Assembly (NCBI GenBank): GCA_000023185.1
Contig: CP001622.1
Coordinates: 3,162,001 to 3,226,000, forward strand
Direction of reading: 5' to 3'
Origin: Rhizobium leguminosarum bv. trifolii WSM1325
GTDB lineage: Bacteria > Pseudomonadota > Alphaproteobacteria > Rhizobiales > Rhizobiaceae
DNA length: 64,000 nt
Below are positions 44,482 through 51,931 of this stretch, piece by piece (the stretch's first letter is position 1; each line of letters opens with the position of its first letter). The translations under genes were made by a program, and so were the position numbers. Below the pieces are notes generated by a model. It did no database searches. It worked only from the letters and a program-made list of their open reading frames with translations, and was not told the origin of the DNA.

Positions 44482-44885
44482 GATGAAGGGTCGGTCGTCG
44501 AAAGGCTGGCCGTGCAGAAGACATTGAGTGCGAAATCGCGCCGCCTCCCTGCCCGGAGGCAACGTCAGTGAAGCCGCTTGCCCCTCGCTCGAAACCATCC
44601 GTGAGATGGATGTCGAACAGCTTCTGAATAAAGCGCCAGCGGCCGGAAACGAGCCGGGCTCCCCTAACCTACAATTGACACGAAACGCCGAACCATAGGC
44701 CCTTACCGGGCGTCCGTTTCAGCGCGTTGCCTCACGGCGATTGAAATAAACGGCTCCGTTCGATTGACGACTGCTTGGCTGCGCGCAACCACACGCATAA
44801 CCCCGAAAATCGAAGCTGATTTTCGGGGTTATCGCGGGTTTGAAGTGGTGGAGCGTTCTCGGCGTGTCCGATCGGACGCGCCGTA
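44482..44885. other. Intergenic stretch with a convergent hairpin
   Basis: No gene seen. It lies between two small convergent genes and contains the perfect hairpin at 44798-44831. Confidence 0.45.
44798..44831. terminator. Perfect 14-bp hairpin between convergent genes
   Basis: Arms 44798-44811 and 44818-44831 are exact complements around a 6-base loop (TAACCCCGAAAATC type). No T-run follows on either strand. Its position between converging genes suggests a bidirectional, perhaps Rho-assisted, end signal. Confidence 0.55.
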
Positions 44886-45134
44886 CTAATGACTTCTCAC
44901 ACTCACTTGCGGAACTGGAGAGCTCAATTCAGCCAGTTCCCTGGTCAAACCCTCCCCCACCTCCTGCTTCACGGCCTCGAGCGCAAGGTCGAGGCAATTC
45001 GTCGCGAACGGCAGTTTGACATCCTGAGCGACCTGTCGCGCATAGGCGATCATTCGCGCCAACGCGACGAGCTCTTCCAGACCGTCTTCCGCCCCTTGGT
45101 CTGCATCCATCTTGAAAACCGATGTCACGCCCAT
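44886..45134 (-). CDS. Small hypothetical protein beside tfuA
   Basis: 82 residues from the ATG at 45134, with GGAG 9 bases upstream on the minus strand; an ATG five codons earlier lacks such a site. Helical, soluble (EDGLEELVALARMIAYARQV, LPFATNCLDLALEAVKQEVG). No family recognised. It lies 103 bases beyond the tfuA stop on the same strand, so it could be read with the YcaO/TfuA genes, but the gap leaves this open. Confidence 0.5.
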   Translation of the reverse strand: MGVTSVFKMDADQGAEDGLEELVALARMIAYARQVAQDVKLPFATNCLDLALEAVKQEVGEGLTRELAELSSPVPQVSVRSH

Positions 45135-45237
45135 GCCCCATTTCTCCAATGAATTGAAGAAATGATACGCGTGTGGAGGTGATCCAGCCCGTGAAAAAAG
45201 CGTGACACAACCCTCGGTGACTATTGCCGGCTTCGGT

Positions 45238-45945
45238 TCACAATGCAGGGCGCGTCAGGAATGAGGTTTCGTGCAGTTTCCAGGGCAGATCGGCACTCGA
45301 GCGAATGTCACGGGAGTCCTGCACGGCTTTCAGCAACGCCAAGGCATCGATGCGTTTTTGATCGATGGCATTCGACAGTAGTACCGCGAGCAGATCCGTA
45401 CGATCGCGCTCGGCCAGCCCTCCACATTGCTCGACGATCGATCGCCATGACCGCTTCTTGAAGAAGATCGCGCTTGCGGCATCTTCGAGCTCCTGGCGCA
45501 CCCCACTTGCCAGCAGCCCGCGATCCACCATCACATCGAGCGTTGCGCTGACATTGACGAGCGGTACCGTCAGCGCTTTGCTGCCCAGCGCGCTCGGCGC
45601 GTGCGTGAGTGCGACGGCGGCATCGTCGACCAGCCGGCCGGTGCGATAATCTTCGAAAATGCGGCCGATCCCGATCATGCCGAACGGATGGCATTCCGCA
45701 GCGCGCAGCGCGCCCATGCTTGCCGCCCCGAAAACCGCGACGCCCAGCGAAAGAGCATGGAGAATTTCCTTGTGCCAGACCGGTGCGGCATATTCGAAGG
45801 CGCCGTCAATCAGGCCGATGACATTGGCGCCTTGTTCCACGGCAGCCAGGACATCGCCTTGCGTGGCAGGCGGCAGGATGCGTATCCCCTCGCCGGCAAG
45901 CGACGCCGCATCGGGAAGACTGGGACCTGCGAAAATGATCTTCAA
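45238..45945 (-). CDS. tfuA: TfuA-like protein, partner of YcaO in peptide thioamidation
   Basis: 235 residues of the TfuA family, named from trifolitoxin production in Rhizobium. Family marks: KIIFAGPSLP at the N-terminus, ANVIGLIDGAFEYAAPVWHK, EILHALSLGVAVFGAASMGA, LRAAECHPFGMIGIGRIFED and DDAAVALTHAP. TfuA proteins work with YcaO enzymes to place sulfur in peptide backbone amides, as known for methyl-coenzyme M reductase and thioamitide peptides; TfuA is thought to help deliver sulfide. The ATG overlaps the ycaO stop by 4 bases, so the two proteins are made together. Confidence 0.9.
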   Translation of the reverse strand: MKIIFAGPSLPDAASLAGEGIRILPPATQGDVLAAVEQGANVIGLIDGAFEYAAPVWHKEILHALSLGVAVFGAASMGALRAAECHPFGMIGIGRIFEDYRTGRLVDDAAVALTHAPSALGSKALTVPLVNVSATLDVMVDRGLLASGVRQELEDAASAIFFKKRSWRSIVEQCGGLAERDRTDLLAVLLSNAIDQKRIDALALLKAVQDSRDIRSSADLPWKLHETSFLTRPAL

Positions 45946-47117
45946 AACCCTATTGCCCTGGCAAGCGCCCTCGTTCCAAACCGCCGGGCGCGCGCTCCCT
46001 CCGGATTTTCGAGCTCGGGGATGACAATCTTGACGACGCTGAAGGGAAGCGTGTCCTCGCTCAGGCGCACGGCGATCACCGAAGCGATCCGCCTGTTTCT
46101 GAGCGCATCGAGCACATGCTGCAGCAAGTGCGCCAGATCTTGTTGCCGAAGTCCTGCCGCCCCGGCATTGCCGATGGCGGCAGCGGGCGGTGCGGCAACC
46201 GCATCGAAGGCCCGCCGCATCAGCGGCGGCAACGATCGTGAGAAAGTTGCGGGAGAAATATCGTCCCTGGCTCCACTGATATAGGTCAGCCGGGATTGCA
46301 CGGCTTCCGTCACCGCCCGAATGGCCGCGCGCACGGGAGACGGATGAGCGCCGGTTCCGCCGGTTACCTCGACGAGGCGAATATCCCGGTGGCCCAGAAT
46401 CGGATCTCCAGGGCCCAGCATGGCGGTGAAACAGGGGATCGCGATGTCGCTGGTGATATCGAAGAGCCTGAGCGCCAATCCCGATGTTTCGATCTTGTCG
46501 ATCAGCCCGTCCAGGGCGCCGTCCTTAAAGCCGCGGGGATCGACGCAGCCGGCATAACGATCCGGTTCCGCGCCCACCTGCCACAGCACATGGGCGTCAC
46601 GTTCGATACGCTCCAGGACGCCGTGGAAGATCGCCTCCTCGACATTGTTTCCCGATGCCAGGCCGTCCGACGACATCCAGTATCGCGCGTCACGTGTGCG
46701 GTCGAGCACCACCGCTTCAAAGGGGATATAGACCTCGCCGCCGGTGAGGATATCGACGCCGGCAACCCATTCCGTCTCCTCGTCCGGTCCGAGATCGGGT
46801 TTATGAAGAGCGGTGAGGCAGTTCAGCGTGTCGGTCTTGTGCCCCATTTCCTGCAGACGGGAAGAGGTGCCGCGGACGAGATCGACGGAGGGTTCGCCGG
46901 CAACCGCCCGTTCGAGGGCTTCCATGACAGTGGAGACTTTGGCATCGAGATCGGTCAGGCCCTTTCCCTGGGCAATCACGATCGAGCGGGAATTCGGAGC
47001 GTATGCGCACCAGACGGGGATGCCGATGTCGTCCAGTCCGGTATGTCGCGCAACCCTGGTAATGCCGAACCCGGCCAAAAGAGGTTCGACGCGGGAAAGG
47101 GTTTCCCGCGGCGACAT
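45942..47117 (-). CDS. YcaO-domain ATP-dependent peptide backbone-modifying enzyme
   Basis: 391 residues. YcaO marks: STVMEALERAVAGEPSVDLV and VLERIERDAHVLW, which supply the Mg-ATP glutamates, and EVTGGTGAHPSPVRAAIRAV followed by TEAVQSRLTYISGARDD, the most conserved block. YcaO phosphorylates a backbone amide oxygen; with TfuA beside it the expected product is a thioamide, not an azoline. The C-terminus lacks the PxPxP tail of azoline-forming members, in keeping with this. A peptide gene lies 42 bases upstream and is the likely substrate. No dehydrogenase or separate leader-binding protein gene is adjacent. Confidence 0.9.
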   Translation of the reverse strand: MSPRETLSRVEPLLAGFGITRVARHTGLDDIGIPVWCAYAPNSRSIVIAQGKGLTDLDAKVSTVMEALERAVAGEPSVDLVRGTSSRLQEMGHKTDTLNCLTALHKPDLGPDEETEWVAGVDILTGGEVYIPFEAVVLDRTRDARYWMSSDGLASGNNVEEAIFHGVLERIERDAHVLWQVGAEPDRYAGCVDPRGFKDGALDGLIDKIETSGLALRLFDITSDIAIPCFTAMLGPGDPILGHRDIRLVEVTGGTGAHPSPVRAAIRAVTEAVQSRLTYISGARDDISPATFSRSLPPLMRRAFDAVAAPPAAAIGNAGAAGLRQQDLAHLLQHVLDALRNRRIASVIAVRLSEDTLPFSVVKIVIPELENPEGARARRFGTRALARAIGF

Positions 47118-47159
47118 GATCCTGTCGGAATATATGGACCGGCGCGTCAGAATGCCGGC

Positions 47160-47372
47160 TCAGCCGTCGACGTGACCGGAAAGGGCAACCTGCGCCGACG
47201 AAACCGCAACGGCGAGGTCGACGCCCTTGACGAAAGTGCCGCCGGCCTTGCGCAGGCCGTTTGCAGTCGCCAATTCCCCCGTCGGATTGAGAGGCTTGAC
47301 CGTACCCGCGTCGAGATCGGCAAGCCAGAGACCCGCCTCACCAGGTATTCCTATAATAACAGCTTTTGCCAT
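47160..47372 (-). CDS. 70-residue peptide, candidate substrate of YcaO/TfuA (RiPP precursor)
   Basis: Reads MAKAVIIGIPGEAGLWLADL, DAGTVKPLNPTGELATANGL, RKAGGTFVKGVDLAVAVSSA and QVALSGHVDG. The ATG at 47372 has GAGGGG about 6 bases upstream on the minus strand, and the gene lies between the BTAD regulator (20 bases away) and ycaO (42 bases). There is no cysteine and only one serine pair, so azole formation is unlikely, but the Gly/Ala/Val-rich second half offers thioamide sites. No signal peptide and no known precursor family recognised. Position, size and composition support the precursor role; it is not proved. A competing minus frame (47147-47341) is Arg-rich and a shadow. Confidence 0.65.
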   Translation of the reverse strand: MAKAVIIGIPGEAGLWLADLDAGTVKPLNPTGELATANGLRKAGGTFVKGVDLAVAVSSAQVALSGHVDG

Positions 47373-47392
47373 GTAACGCCCCTCAGCTATTG

Positions 47393-49240
47393 TTAAAAAC
47401 CGGCCTTCAGCAGGCCCTCCCGATAAAGCTCTTTTTGCCAATCTTCCTTGAAGGGAACGATGGTGAGCCACTTCTCGACGTCGAAGACCGGGTTGATGCT
47501 TTCGGCTCGTTGCCGATGGAACAGCGCCCGTTTTCGATCGCCGATCATTGCGCAACTGGCCGCGGCGATGCGATGGGCCGGCGCCTTGTCTTTCATCGCC
47601 TCGACATAGGCGATGGCCTCCTCGTACTGTTCCAGGAAGAAGCTCGCTCCCGCAGCGCACCAGAGGTAGGCGTCAGGCGCGATCGGATTGAGCGAAATCG
47701 CTCTTCTGATCTTGGCGAGCGCGTCGCCAGGGCGGGATGCATGCACGAGCGTGTCGGCATGGCTGTAGATGACATCGGCAAAATGCGGGCTGAGTTGTTC
47801 CGCCAGATCAAGTGCGGCGACACTGGCATCGACATCGCCGAGATAGAGTTTGGTGACGCCAAGCTCGCGATGGCCCGCCGCCGAGGCCGGATCCCGCTCG
47901 ATGGCCCGAAGCGCGTTCTGCTCCGCCAGATGCAGCAGCTCATTGTTACCCTGCGCCGTCACGAGCCACTCGCTGGTGAAGGTTCTCGCCAGCCCGGTAA
48001 ATGACGGAGAGAAATCCGCCTTGTGCGACAGCGACTGCTTGAAAGCTTTTCGTGCCCGGCGGATATGCGGCAATGTCAATTTGCTCATCAGGCTCGAGCC
48101 GACCAGATAGGCGTGATAGGCCTCAGGATTGGCTTCGAAGCGTAAGCGCTCTTCCTCGTTTTCAGCCAGCTCGCGGGCCACCGACATAGTCAACTGCTGC
48201 GCAATCAGCCGTCTCTGACGCGGCAATATATCGGGCGTCATCGTAAAGCGATTGGCCCAGATGATCTCGTCCGTGGGAAAATAAACCAGCTGGGCGAACA
48301 ATCCCTCTTCGGAAAGCCGTGTATCCAGAAGATAGGCGATCGAGTGACGGGCGACCACAGCAGCCTTCTCGGAATCGCGGCGGATCTGGCCGGCCGTATG
48401 GGGCGCTACGATGGAAATGTTTCTGAGCGCGCAGAGTTCGATCGTGACGTCTTCGATCAGGGCATTGGCAAGCGCAAGCCCGGCATCGGCATGTTTCGAT
48501 GTCGGGGGAAGCAGCACCAGTCGAGGCAGGATCAGCGGCGCTGGCGACATGCGTTCGATGTCGGCAGTTGCCTCACCGCCGGCCTCGGAACGCTTCACCT
48601 GTACCCTGGCATGGCCGTCATCGTTCGGCAATCTTTCGCTGAGGGACGAACCGCCGGATAACCGGTGCAGTAAGGCTCTGACCTGCTCGTCATTCGGATC
48701 CCGTTCGAGGATCTGCAGAGCGGCGCCGGAAATGGAGCGCGTAGCGCCGGGCTTTTGCGCATCCGGCAACGCGTCCAGCAGTGCCTGCCGCAACTGCAGC
48801 GCCTGAGCGTCCCGTTGGGCCCTGATCCAGGCGTCTATCAGCTTTGTCGCTGGTTTGATATTTCCGATGAACCCGCGCTGGGTTAATTCGGCGATTGCGT
48901 TCAGCCGCTCCAGCGGCGAACCGCCGGCGCGAAAAATATCCAGATCGCTGGAAACTGCCTGCGTGTTGAGACGAACCGTGGTGGCGGTGAAATCGAAGGG
49001 CAATTCGGCGCGCCCGCCGTCTGTCTCGCGGATGCGGGAAAGCAGTTTGCGCAGATTGAGCCGCGCCAGCTCTGGTTCGACATCATTCCACAGAAACTGG
49101 GCCAATTCGTACCGGCTGAGCTCATGGCTCGCGCCGGCATAGAGATGGGCCATCATCAACAGGCCCTTGATCGGATAGCGAACCTGGTCGCCATTCGTCT
49201 CGATCAACCGCAGATCGCCAAATGTCTGCAGATGAAGCAC
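47393..49240 (-). CDS. Large SARP/BTAD-type transcriptional regulator with TolB-like and TPR regions
   Basis: 615 residues. Residues ~1-90 form an OmpR/SARP-like winged helix (LHLQTFGDLRLIETNGDQVR, ELAQFLWNDVEPELARLNLR, KLLSRIRETDG). Residues ~95-195 fit a bacterial transcriptional activation (BTAD) helical domain. Residues ~235-345 resemble the TolB/FlgO-like segment of cyclase-type regulators (LVLLPPTSKHADAGLALANA, IAYLLDTRLSEEGLFAQLVY). From ~365 there are TPR repeats (YHAYLVGSSLMSKL, AEQNALRAIERDPASAAGHR, ALAKIRRAISLNPIAPDAYL). Such proteins sense a signal and activate nearby operons, often for secondary metabolites. It is 9 bases from the HTH gene and 20 from the peptide gene, so it probably controls this locus. 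Confidence 0.8.
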   Translation of the reverse strand: MLHLQTFGDLRLIETNGDQVRYPIKGLLMMAHLYAGASHELSRYELAQFLWNDVEPELARLNLRKLLSRIRETDGGRAELPFDFTATTVRLNTQAVSSDLDIFRAGGSPLERLNAIAELTQRGFIGNIKPATKLIDAWIRAQRDAQALQLRQALLDALPDAQKPGATRSISGAALQILERDPNDEQVRALLHRLSGGSSLSERLPNDDGHARVQVKRSEAGGEATADIERMSPAPLILPRLVLLPPTSKHADAGLALANALIEDVTIELCALRNISIVAPHTAGQIRRDSEKAAVVARHSIAYLLDTRLSEEGLFAQLVYFPTDEIIWANRFTMTPDILPRQRRLIAQQLTMSVARELAENEEERLRFEANPEAYHAYLVGSSLMSKLTLPHIRRARKAFKQSLSHKADFSPSFTGLARTFTSEWLVTAQGNNELLHLAEQNALRAIERDPASAAGHRELGVTKLYLGDVDASVAALDLAEQLSPHFADVIYSHADTLVHASRPGDALAKIRRAISLNPIAPDAYLWCAAGASFFLEQYEEAIAYVEAMKDKAPAHRIAAASCAMIGDRKRALFHRQRAESINPVFDVEKWLTIVPFKEDWQKELYREGLLKAGF

Positions 49241-49249
49241 GATCCATCC

Positions 49250-49675
49250 TCAGCTGTTCACAACCGAATCTTGCAACTCATTGTCGCTGTCAGACAATCC
49301 CGTGACTGCCAGGCTTTTGGCCAACGCCACCAGCTTTTGCCTGATATTCGGGTCTTCGATGGCGATGAATGCCTTGTTGAGCGCCAACCCCTCCTTCGAG
49401 GACAAAAAGCTGTTCAATTCATTCGTCGCGCCGTCGATCGGTCCGGCGCCGCCGTTCTCGAAGAAAAAGCCGATGGGCACGCGAAGAATCTCGGATATGC
49501 GCTGAAGACGGCTGGCGCCTATTCTATTCGTTCCCTTTTCGTATTTCTGGATCTGCTGGAAGGTAATGCCCAGAAGTTCGGCCAAGCCGTTCTGGGTCAT
49601 CCCGAGCGTCTTTCGCCGAACGCGCACGCGGTTGCCAACATAAACGTCAATCGAATTCGGCGATTTAGCCTTCAT
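49250..49675 (-). CDS. XRE-family HTH regulator at the head of the YcaO/TfuA locus
   Basis: 141 residues. The XRE helix-turn-helix is at residues ~12-65: VYVGNRVRVRRKTLGMTQNG, LAELLGITFQQIQKYEKGTN and RIGASRLQRISEILRV. The rest is helical with no ligand domain I know. The type is common in rhizobia (the PraR-like group reads very similarly) where members tune quorum sensing, attachment and polysaccharides. It is the first gene of the minus-strand set, 9 bases before the BTAD regulator. AT-rich DNA upstream (49676-49846) is the likely promoter and perhaps its own operator. Confidence 0.85.
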   Translation of the reverse strand: MKAKSPNSIDVYVGNRVRVRRKTLGMTQNGLAELLGITFQQIQKYEKGTNRIGASRLQRISEILRVPIGFFFENGGAGPIDGATNELNSFLSSKEGLALNKAFIAIEDPNIRQKLVALAKSLAVTGLSDSDNELQDSVVNS

Positions 49676-49846: not shown

Positions 49847-50539
49847 CTATCGCACCCGTCGCAGCGCACGAATGCCCTCCGAAATCAGTGTCGCTCCGAC
49901 GCCATCTCTAAGAGGCTTTCGCGCAACGGCAATCATCGACTTGGCGAAAACGGGAATCCTTCCGACATATTCAAAATGAACATTGTCGAAGCCGGCATCC
50001 AGCAGCAGCGTGCTCAGCGTGTCTTTTGACCAAAACTTGATATGCCCATGATCCTTCAACGGCATGAAATGATCGTCCATTTTCCCCATCGCAGCCAGGG
50101 CCAGGTTCTTCAGATAACCGTGATAAGGCGTCGACATCACGGCGATGCCGCCCGGCTTGACGAGATCGTACATCGTCGAGGTGAAAGCCTTCGGATCGTA
50201 GACATGTTCGACGACTTCCAGGCTGATGACAGCATTGAAGGTGCCGTATTCCCTGGAAAGGTCGTCATAGGCCGAGCCGACATTCAACGGCAATTCGGGA
50301 TAATTGACATTGGCCTTGGCGATGCCATCGCTGGAAGGATCGACGCCGACGACATAATATCCTTTTCCCGCAAGAGCCGCCGCCGCCCCGCCGGTACCGC
50401 ATCCCAAATCAAAGACGTCGTTCTCGAGAGAACCGTCGAAATGGCTCTCCAGCACGTCGACCACCGCGGGCAAGATATAGGCGTGCGCGGTTGTTGGTTT
50501 GGCGTGAACATAGGTGGTTGCGTCTAGCTCGACGGACAT
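49847..50539 (-). CDS. Class I SAM-dependent methyltransferase
   Basis: 230 residues. Motif I VFDLGCGTGGAAAALAGKGY, then VVGVDPSSDGIAKA, FNAVISLEVVEHVYDPKAF and LVKPGGIAVMSTPYHGYLKN give a UbiG-like core; the substrate is unknown. It lies upstream of the HTH gene on the same strand with a 171-base gap, so it could be a tailoring enzyme of the peptide locus or an unrelated gene. The ATG at 50539 is preceded by GAGGGGAGG on the minus strand. Confidence 0.8.
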   Translation of the reverse strand: MSVELDATTYVHAKPTTAHAYILPAVVDVLESHFDGSLENDVFDLGCGTGGAAAALAGKGYYVVGVDPSSDGIAKANVNYPELPLNVGSAYDDLSREYGTFNAVISLEVVEHVYDPKAFTSTMYDLVKPGGIAVMSTPYHGYLKNLALAAMGKMDDHFMPLKDHGHIKFWSKDTLSTLLLDAGFDNVHFEYVGRIPVFAKSMIAVARKPLRDGVGATLISEGIRALRRVR

Positions 50540-50872: not shown

Positions 50873-51931
50873 TTGAAATGGTGTTACGGCGGCGGCGCCG
50901 AGATCTGTAGCCCCTGCCTGATGGCGAGGCACAAAGGTGCCCAATTGCCGACAAGAAGCCAAAGATATTTAACGGATAAATGTATACTGCTGGATTTAGA
51001 CAGCCCGATCGAAACCCTTCTCGCGCCGGAGAAGACAAGCTTGCCCGATAATTCGTCGTCCGCATATGCGAAACAGCCTGTGGGAAAACCGCGGATTCCC
51101 GTGGTCTTCTGGTTGCTGCTGACGATTTCCCTCTCGCTGATCATGGGAACGGTGCTGCTTTCCAACAACATGAAACACTTAAAGACGGTCAGCCATTATT
51201 TTGGCTTCGATCTCTTCCCCCAGGAGGTCACACCGCCTCCCCCCAAAGCCCTTCCCCGCCCGACACCACCGGCCACCTTCACGCTTCCATTGCATGTCAT
51301 CGAACCGCCCGTGGTAGAGACCGCGTCGACTTTCCTGCGGACATGGCGGATATCCGGCGCCGCAATGTGTGCGGCGTTGCGCAATGCCGGCATCGAAACC
51401 AGCGATTGGGCGGCGGCGAGCTTCAACGCCGATACGTTCGAATGCTTTTTCGAGCGGAGCGGCAAGCGCGAGAAGGATCAGCTCTCGAGCTCTATCTTCG
51501 TCATCGTTCGCGGCGACGCCGCCGGCACGATCAACAATATGCGCGTGAAAATCATCAATCCCGAGACCGATGAAAATGGCCAGCTCGATCCCGGCATTCT
51601 GCGAATTTTCGAAATCATGCTGCGCCAGCCGCAATGGCTCGATTTTCACGAAACCCTGAACGCGATCACGAATCTGAAGGACATCAAGGAAGACGGCTTC
51701 GGAGCCGGTATCAGCTTCAGCCGCGAGGTTCTCAATCCCGGGAATTACAACTTCACGCTCTCGCTGGATGCAACTTCAGGACCTCAGAAAAGAACCAGAA
51801 ATTATTTTTCCGGCAGAAGATGGCTGCCGTTGCCGGATCCCGCAGTCGAGACCGACAGCCCACAACCGGAATCAGTCTCCAAGCCTCCCCATACCCAGGC
51901 TCCGGCTGAAAGTCAGGAACATCGGCATTAG
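50873..51931 (+). CDS. Single-pass membrane protein with periplasmic domain, unknown function (possibly DUF6030-like)
   Basis: 352 residues if the TTG at 50873 is the start (GGAGA at 50861-50865); starts at ATG 50921 or later are possible. One membrane helix near residues 75-97 (IPVVFWLLLTISLSLIMGTV) is followed by a Pro-rich linker and a ~190-residue domain (AMCAALRNAGIETSDWAAAS, ECFFERSGKREKDQLSSSIF, GAGISFSREVLNPGNYNFTL) that should lie in the periplasm. It resembles proteins I associate with rhizobial polysaccharide regions, but I cannot confirm the family. It precedes the exopolysaccharide cluster. Confidence 0.6.
   Translation: MKWCYGGGAEICSPCLMARHKGAQLPTRSQRYLTDKCILLDLDSPIETLLAPEKTSLPDNSSSAYAKQPVGKPRIPVVFWLLLTISLSLIMGTVLLSNNMKHLKTVSHYFGFDLFPQEVTPPPPKALPRPTPPATFTLPLHVIEPPVVETASTFLRTWRISGAAMCAALRNAGIETSDWAAASFNADTFECFFERSGKREKDQLSSSIFVIVRGDAAGTINNMRVKIINPETDENGQLDPGILRIFEIMLRQPQWLDFHETLNAITNLKDIKEDGFGAGISFSREVLNPGNYNFTLSLDATSGPQKRTRNYFSGRRWLPLPDPAVETDSPQPESVSKPPHTQAPAESQEHRH

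Follow-up and report, generated by a model that had tools for sequence, protein, structure and literature searches.

We analysed a 64,000-nucleotide stretch of Rhizobium leguminosarum bv. trifolii WSM1325 (GenBank assembly GCA_000023185.1, contig CP001622.1, positions 3,162,001 to 3,226,000 of the forward strand; hereafter the window) and found that six genes on its minus strand, between positions 44886 and 49675, form a cassette that probably makes a thioamidated ribosomally synthesized and post-translationally modified peptide (RiPP). The 70-residue product of one small gene would be a precursor composed of a leader and a core, with a thioamide placed at or next to Gly66 and release by host peptidases, and a BTAD-TPR protein would control or sense it. 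The features of the cassette are as follows, with the evidence for each in brackets (aa, amino acids; dN/dS, ratio of nonsynonymous to synonymous substitution rates).

49250..49675, minus strand: xre (P0005), XRE-type helix-turn-helix protein, 141 aa (PF01381, 3e-13)
47393..49240, minus strand: btad (P0004), BTAD/TPR regulator-like protein, 615 aa, GTG start (sub-threshold TPR matches; a paralog matches PF03704)
47379..47384, minus strand: GAGGGG, likely ribosome-binding site of the peptide gene (sequence)
47160..47372, minus strand: putative precursor peptide gene (P0001), 70 aa plus stop, no Cys (family alignments, dN/dS 0.14, phyletic pattern with ycaO)
47223..47372, minus strand: putative leader, peptide residues 1-50, boundary drawn by comparison (single where the next unit repeats in multi-core relatives)
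47163..47222, minus strand: peptide residues 51-70, VDLAVAVSSAQVALSGHVDG, counterpart of the unit repeated 2-6 times in multi-core operons
47163..47180, minus strand: predicted core SGHVDG (core repeats in relatives; Gly66 in 108/109 single-core peptides)
45942..47117, minus strand: ycaO (P0002), 391 aa, predicted thioamide-forming ATP-dependent enzyme (PF02624, TIGR03266, structure 6pe3)
45238..45945, minus strand: tfuA (P0003), 235 aa, TTG start (PF07812, NF033432, structure 6xp8)
44886..45149, minus strand: p87 (P0006), small protein of 87 aa, the sixth cassette gene (travels with the cassette)

Both enzymes matched their families, YcaO at 219.6 bits to PF02624 (cut-off 25.7) and TfuA at 141.8 bits to PF07812 (cut-off 30), and they are encoded together, with genes that overlap by 4 bases. 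The best curated model for YcaO was TIGR03266, which describes thioamidation of the McrA glycine (194.2 bits, below the cut-off of 365), and TfuA scored 181.1 bits against NF033432, below the cut-off of 235.2. YcaO also aligned with the MJ1094 structure 6pe3 over nearly its whole length (residues 2-371, E = 2.4e-29) and TfuA with structure 6xp8 (E = 1.8e-32), while the SagD-type YcaO model TIGR03604 gave 96.7 bits, below its cut-off of 219.25. The general mechanism of YcaO enzymes and the nucleophiles they use have been described (PMC13063428).

The peptide gene was called mechanically as an open reading frame (ORF) of 166 aa starting with the GTG at 47660, and we chose the ATG at 47372 as its start because homologs start at that place. 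These are mostly 64-92 aa long and nearly all share this start, with a purine-rich site upstream; a few have GTG or TTG at this position, and two (L118/L129) lack a start codon where the others align. Peptide dN/dS was 0.14 (ratio of means; 210 pairs from 21 loci), compared with 0.08-0.19 for its neighbours, and the peptide is therefore a conserved gene and not a chance open frame. Searches of Pfam, NCBIfam and solved structures with the peptide returned nothing usable. Conservation by residue was assessed in 109 distinct single-core peptides of 62-76 aa, in which Gly66 was kept in 108, followed by two residues that vary, and residue 65 was Ser in 80 and Ala or Gly in 27. Cys occurred in only two of these peptides, and the 70-aa translation of the window peptide contains none, as an earlier reading of the window from its sequence only (the sequence-only reading) had noted. 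Among annotated plasmids the peptide was present in 57 records, all from Rhizobiaceae genera, and was called 'hypothetical protein' wherever the listed rows name it. At two loci (L212:4000-4480 and L133:5580-6079), two precursor genes stand in tandem ahead of one ycaO.

Relatives of the peptide repeat its C-terminal unit. The peptide of locus L114 ends in four FSGKLE units (FSGKLEG-FSGKLEA-FSGKLEA-FSGKLD), those of L060, L063 and L103 end in three GLHE units, and eight loci with peptide, ycaO and tfuA in a row encode peptides with 2-6 units, each ~24 aa long and in some cases worn at the outer positions; tfuA is near in seven of the eight. One such unit, ADVAVGFEPKEAAFSGHVFRSPG, is the counterpart of VDLAVAVSSAQVALSGHVDG in the window. 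Precursors in other families of the order carry four GGFLE units, six GLFERSE units and a worn seventh, five RSDAASHIFYG units and a worn sixth, or eight DAASHHYFPNRG-like units. Of 18 peptide matches outside the Rhizobiaceae we left out the three weakest (G435, G583 and G492) and read the other 15 loci, all of which had btad and 14 of which had ycaO, the remaining locus lying at a contig end. Leader and core organisation is thus found as repeats in relatives. For the window peptide, which has one unit and a boundary drawn by comparison, we infer the layout of a RiPP precursor, in which a leader is followed by a single core with SGHVDG at its end. The eight-unit example is a precursor of ~237 aa that adjoins BTAD and YcaO genes (L241:1033-1746). 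The R. rhizogenes plasmid pC5.7c (L216:2515-10055, L214) carries a multi-core precursor and a second ycaO-tfuA pair; cysE and genes for a methyltransferase, an iron-containing redox enzyme and a DMT transporter near that ycaO-tfuA were set aside, as none of them recurs at the seven other multi-core loci. A degenerate remnant of a precursor of the multi-core type lies beside a BTAD gene in G006 (L202:2118-2017).

We also assessed the association between peptide and YcaO in two samples, 297 Rhizobiaceae genomes and 60 Rhizobium genomes, which share three and together hold 354; the counts are not independent because the sampled genomes are related. The peptide was found in 102 of the 354, all with a related YcaO. 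In the larger sample, 94 genomes had a YcaO match and 49 the peptide (49/49 with a YcaO match), and its presence followed the strength of the best YcaO match: 48/48 at E ≤ 1e-66, 0/43 at E > 1e-63 and 1/3 (G200) in between. Two genomes near the E limit and without the peptide (G204 and G275) fell in a second YcaO clade, whose loci hold an unrelated peptide of 41-47 aa; a third (G333) was left out of the YcaO tree, which was built from 133 different sequences out of 188. Two genomes with the peptide (G200 and G271) fell outside the main clade of 110 tree rows. Among the 60 Rhizobium genomes, 56 had both peptide and YcaO, and the other four lacked the peptide and had either no YcaO (G004 and G044) or only a more distant one (G025 and G049); in 23 of the 60, the peptide outcome (21 with, 2 without) was as their YcaO matches imply. 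In G360 and G287 neither the peptide nor a near YcaO was present, although congeners have both. Beyond the order, a sample of 337 genomes of the class, with the best 18-20 candidates scored per genome, returned only the WSM1325 genome itself and one match at 7e-4. The phyletic pattern, together with the copies in trans described below, links a dedicated precursor to the enzymes, and the family matches and co-occurrence bear out the proposal that the YcaO-TfuA pair has a peptide of its own, distinct from the known azole peptides.

The association is not confined to a single locus. In a clade of 13 tree rows, btad and the peptide gene next to ycaO have been lost or survive as scars, and ycaO and tfuA are still open, with dN/dS values (0.23 and 0.19) that indicate constraint. 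In a clade of seven rows, btad, the peptide gene and tfuA are all missing from the ycaO locus, and L064 represents a separate loss in which btad and the peptide gene were deleted and ycaO kept. After counting records with identical coordinates once, these are 21 distinct genomes without a peptide gene in cis (13, 7 and 1), and whole-genome searches found a stop-free peptide match elsewhere in 21/21. That copy follows a btad gene in the eight stretches read (G005, G006, G007, G015, G017, G022, G023 and G032), and in the seven-row clade tfuA lies 2.17-2.20 kb from it, by sequence in G015, G022 and G032 and by coordinates in G043, G397, G398 and G399. L029 and L041 carry the peptide gene, but their tfuA lies elsewhere and not next to ycaO. 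The genomes thus retain the gene set although it is spread over more than one locus, and the link between peptide and YcaO survives in trans, because all 21 genomes carry another copy. The expectation that the peptide would always sit beside YcaO-TfuA did not hold, given its loss from the ycaO locus in two clades and L064. Its absence from relatives that keep ycaO-tfuA, which the sequence-only reading had named as grounds for rejection, is literally found at the locus, but not at the level of the genome. WSM1325 itself carries an orphan BTAD-precursor pair (contig C1, 97984; L127:6025-8203), the precursor ending SGHYDG, with no ycaO, tfuA or xre adjoining.

The regulators follow different partners. 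The xre product matched HTH_3 at 50 bits (cut-off 23), and xre stays beside ycaO where btad and the peptide gene are lost. In Pfam, P0004 gave TPR matches only, below their cut-offs, and its relatives are annotated 'adenylate cyclase' or 'hypothetical protein'; we name it BTAD after a paralog encoded on contig C3 of WSM1325, with which it aligns at 29-31% and which matches PF03704 (4.4e-14). Neighbourhoods were counted for 126 distinct peptide genes out of 181 matches, including the degenerate fragment L202 and with the multi-core L216 counted as single; among the 119 genes taken as single-core, 115 have btad directly upstream on the same strand, a proportion that is not a frequency, as orphan and multi-core loci were chosen deliberately. 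None of the eight multi-core loci has a co-oriented btad adjoining. Each of the three full-length BTAD homologs of the WSM1325 genome (C1 3.21 Mb, C1 96 kb and C3 614 kb) immediately precedes a precursor-like ORF.

Under the proposed mechanism, the 70-residue peptide would be the precursor, with residues 1-50 as leader and a C-terminal unit containing the single core that ends SGHVDG. YcaO would activate a core backbone amide with ATP, and TfuA would deliver, or help to deliver, sulfide, turning the amide of the nearly invariant Gly66, or one beside it, into a thioamide; we predict this site because of the YcaO and TfuA matches, the variation at residue 65 and the scarcity of Cys. General peptidases, which we propose because no protease or exporter is encoded in the cassette, would probably cut the precursor down to a short product protected by its thioamide, a route also proposed for the thiovarsolins. 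One YcaO-TfuA pair could serve precursors encoded elsewhere, here including the second precursor ending SGHYDG (G000:C1:97984). The BTAD-TPR protein, encoded beside the precursor and not the enzymes, would control precursor expression or sense the product; XRE goes with ycaO. Gene content, conservation, co-occurrence, split loci and core repeats are observations, from which we infer the modification and its site, the cleavage, the service in trans and what the two regulators and p87 do.

Several observations weigh against this mechanism. YcaO and TfuA fall short of the curated cut-offs for McrA thioamidation. When the ORFs of the window were compared with 65 ycaO loci (31 near, 34 distant), no protease, exporter or tailoring enzyme was conserved with the cassette. 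In the neighbourhood counts, tfuA was not seen near the multi-core operon of L223. Linkage of the peptide with BTAD is tighter than with YcaO, as 24 single-core genes, from loci chosen deliberately, adjoin btad and lack a neighbouring ycaO, and peptide distances track BTAD and YcaO distances alike (r = 0.940 vs. 0.939) and do not discriminate between them. G022 has a ycaO match with one in-frame TAG and a TAA in one of its two tfuA copies, and the system may be decaying there; the btad beside the stop-bearing tfuA copy is in pieces. Misses are also possible, since only the best 6 candidates per genome were scored for YcaO (297 genomes) and the best 18-20 for the peptide (the 297, other-family and class samples), though every candidate was scored in peptide searches of the 60 Rhizobium genomes.

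The peptide might instead be thioamidated and never cleaved, which would make it a modified small cytosolic protein like McrA and uL16. The conserved N-terminal part of 50 residues and the lack of a protease or exporter in the cassette are consistent with such a protein, and intact proteins are known YcaO substrates (PMC5589413, PMC13063428). However, a C-terminal unit repeated 2-8 times with varied residues in several lineages is the habit of multi-core precursors, and the missing cluster protease has a precedent in the thiovarsolins, so that we regard an uncleaved protein as unlikely. The sequence-only reading had left the choice between a thioamidated RiPP and a modified cytosolic protein open, and the tandem core repeats of relatives favour the RiPP over the protein.

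It is less probable still that YcaO makes an azoline or amidine in place of a thioamide. YcaO enzymes perform all of these reactions (PMC13063428), and Ser65 precedes Gly66 in 80/109 peptides. But the partner is TfuA, the nearest curated model is the McrA-glycine YcaO, and Ala or Gly at residue 65 in 27/109 peptides indicates that a hydroxyl or thiol is not required there; because of this variation and the scarcity of Cys (2/109), an azoline in the window peptide is unlikely. A core or dehydrogenase of the azole pathway was likewise not apparent, with Cys this rare and no seventh gene conserved with the cassette, in a survey that did not extend to a distant dehydrogenase in the genome. We give very little credence to a peptide that is only a partner or anti-activator of BTAD-TPR, with YcaO-TfuA acting on another protein: the btad gene beside 115/119 single-core-counted peptide genes, the pairs without ycaO and the precursor-like ORFs after all three BTAD homologs of the genome would fit, but at eight multi-core loci the peptide stands with ycaO (at seven of them near tfuA) and has no co-oriented btad adjoining, none of the 102 peptide-bearing genomes among 354 lacks a related YcaO, and the core repeats would go unexplained.

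A thioamidated RiPP could also act as a signal. In RRNPP systems, the gene for a TPR receptor protein lies next to a propeptide gene, and the cassette likewise has a TPR-protein gene followed directly by a peptide gene, a likeness of arrangement only. We raise as a tentative and rather doubtful idea that the thioamidated core is a signal, either intracellular or exchanged, and BTAD-TPR its receptor, forming a Gram-negative RRNPP-like system in which the thioamide protects the signal and one YcaO-TfuA serves several receptor-precursor pairs at different places in the genome.

The limits of the cassette were set by the 65-locus comparison. The five minus-strand genes from xre to tfuA were confirmed in place, with gaps of 9, 20 and 42 bases followed by the 4-base ycaO/tfuA overlap, and the interval start at 44886 takes in p87, which an earlier gene list had omitted. 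Each listed flanking ORF was present at 22-31 of the 31 near loci and at none of the 34 distant ones, where xre was found in 34, ycaO in 34, btad in 29, tfuA in 27 and p87 in 11 (p87 by tblastn at 1e-6, with 31/31 near loci). Because flanking ORFs are missing from distant loci and cassette genes are found there, the unit is xre-btad-peptide-ycaO-tfuA-p87, and its surroundings differ in other species. The closest named loci are those of R. leguminosarum, R. laguerreae and R. johnstonii, with YcaO 90-93% and the peptide up to 100% identical; R. johnstonii 3841 is one strain with the locus (L002). p87 had no Pfam or NCBIfam match and is present in single copy in the WSM1325 genome.

Contig C3 of the same genome carries a divergent paralog of the whole cassette (L096:6390-11477), with BTAD, a 47-aa peptide, YcaO, TfuA, an 88-aa protein and XRE in opposite orientation. 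Its peptide ends HALRFR, and in the 16 loci of its clade examined the peptides are 41-47 aa long (from an inner ATG) and end HA[LV][KR]FR. The 88-aa protein has the same position as p87 and a similar residue pattern, yet there is no BLAST match between them. The description of a compact locus understates a six-gene cassette that has a divergent paralog on C3 and is split over two loci in some genomes.

Among the neighbours, the methyltransferase at 49847-50539 was rejected as a tailoring enzyme, being present in 30/31 near but 0/34 distant loci. A DUF6030 protein at 50873-51931 (PF19495, 3e-58) occurs near the cassette in 31/31 near and 0/34 distant loci. After p87, positions 44797-44832 hold a perfect 15-base inverted repeat with a 6-base loop and no T run, a possible transcript end seen by eye and not in the terminator scan; the promoter and terminator scan found 2 promoters and 6 terminators, compared with 1.4 and 5.0 in shuffles.

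Genome mining has counted over 500 thioamide-type (TfuA-related) clusters in Rhizobium (PMC8120280), and thioamitide-related clusters are carried on Rhizobium plasmids, with a role called unknown there (PMC10434180). The mined TfuA clusters probably include loci like this cassette, although the precursors given in the main text of these sources are CCRG-2, berninamycin-like, albusnodin-like and Nif11-like and not the family of the window peptide (PMC8120280, PMC10434180). In the main texts of the open-licence PMC literature, as far as our searches reached into it, we found no account of the precursor family, its repeats or trans-encoded precursors; the clusters themselves have already been mined. 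Our analysis names a substrate family for the Rhizobium YcaO-TfuA set and predicts the modified residue, finds the set retained in the genome even when split, with relatives in other families of the order reaching eight cores, and directs attention to a regulator and precursor that form a dedicated pair in nitrogen-fixing symbionts. Nearly all the Rhizobium species examined carry a gene set apparently built for a rare sulfur modification of their own short peptide.

Trifolitoxin and phazolicin of Rhizobium depend on azole chemistry, with cores rich in Cys, Ser and Thr and a dehydrogenase. Like the peptide described here they are rhizobial and YcaO-associated, but they are azol(in)e-modified, and the window cassette has no such core or dehydrogenase gene. 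The ycaO-tfuA system that modifies the McrA glycine in methanogens shares with the cassette the nearest curated models for both enzymes, overlapping ycaO-tfuA genes and a glycine as presumed site; its substrate is an enzyme, whereas here it would be a small dedicated peptide, and both scores lie under the cut-offs (PMC5589413). In the thiovarsolins of Streptomyces varsoviensis (varA, varY and varT), VarA carries repeats, YcaO and TfuA are both needed, and there is no cluster protease (PMC6511847). Those clusters differ in having their own precursor with APR cores and genes for heme oxygenase-like, ATP-grasp, transporter and amidinotransferase proteins, and BTAD-TPR and XRE genes are not named in the parts of that source we drew on, unlike the rhizobial cassette (PMC6511847). 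Both systems nevertheless combine YcaO and TfuA with a small leader-plus-core precursor (from no repeat to five) and no cluster protease, and the thiovarsolin product is short and linear, as the rhizobial product is likewise proposed to be short (PMC6511847).

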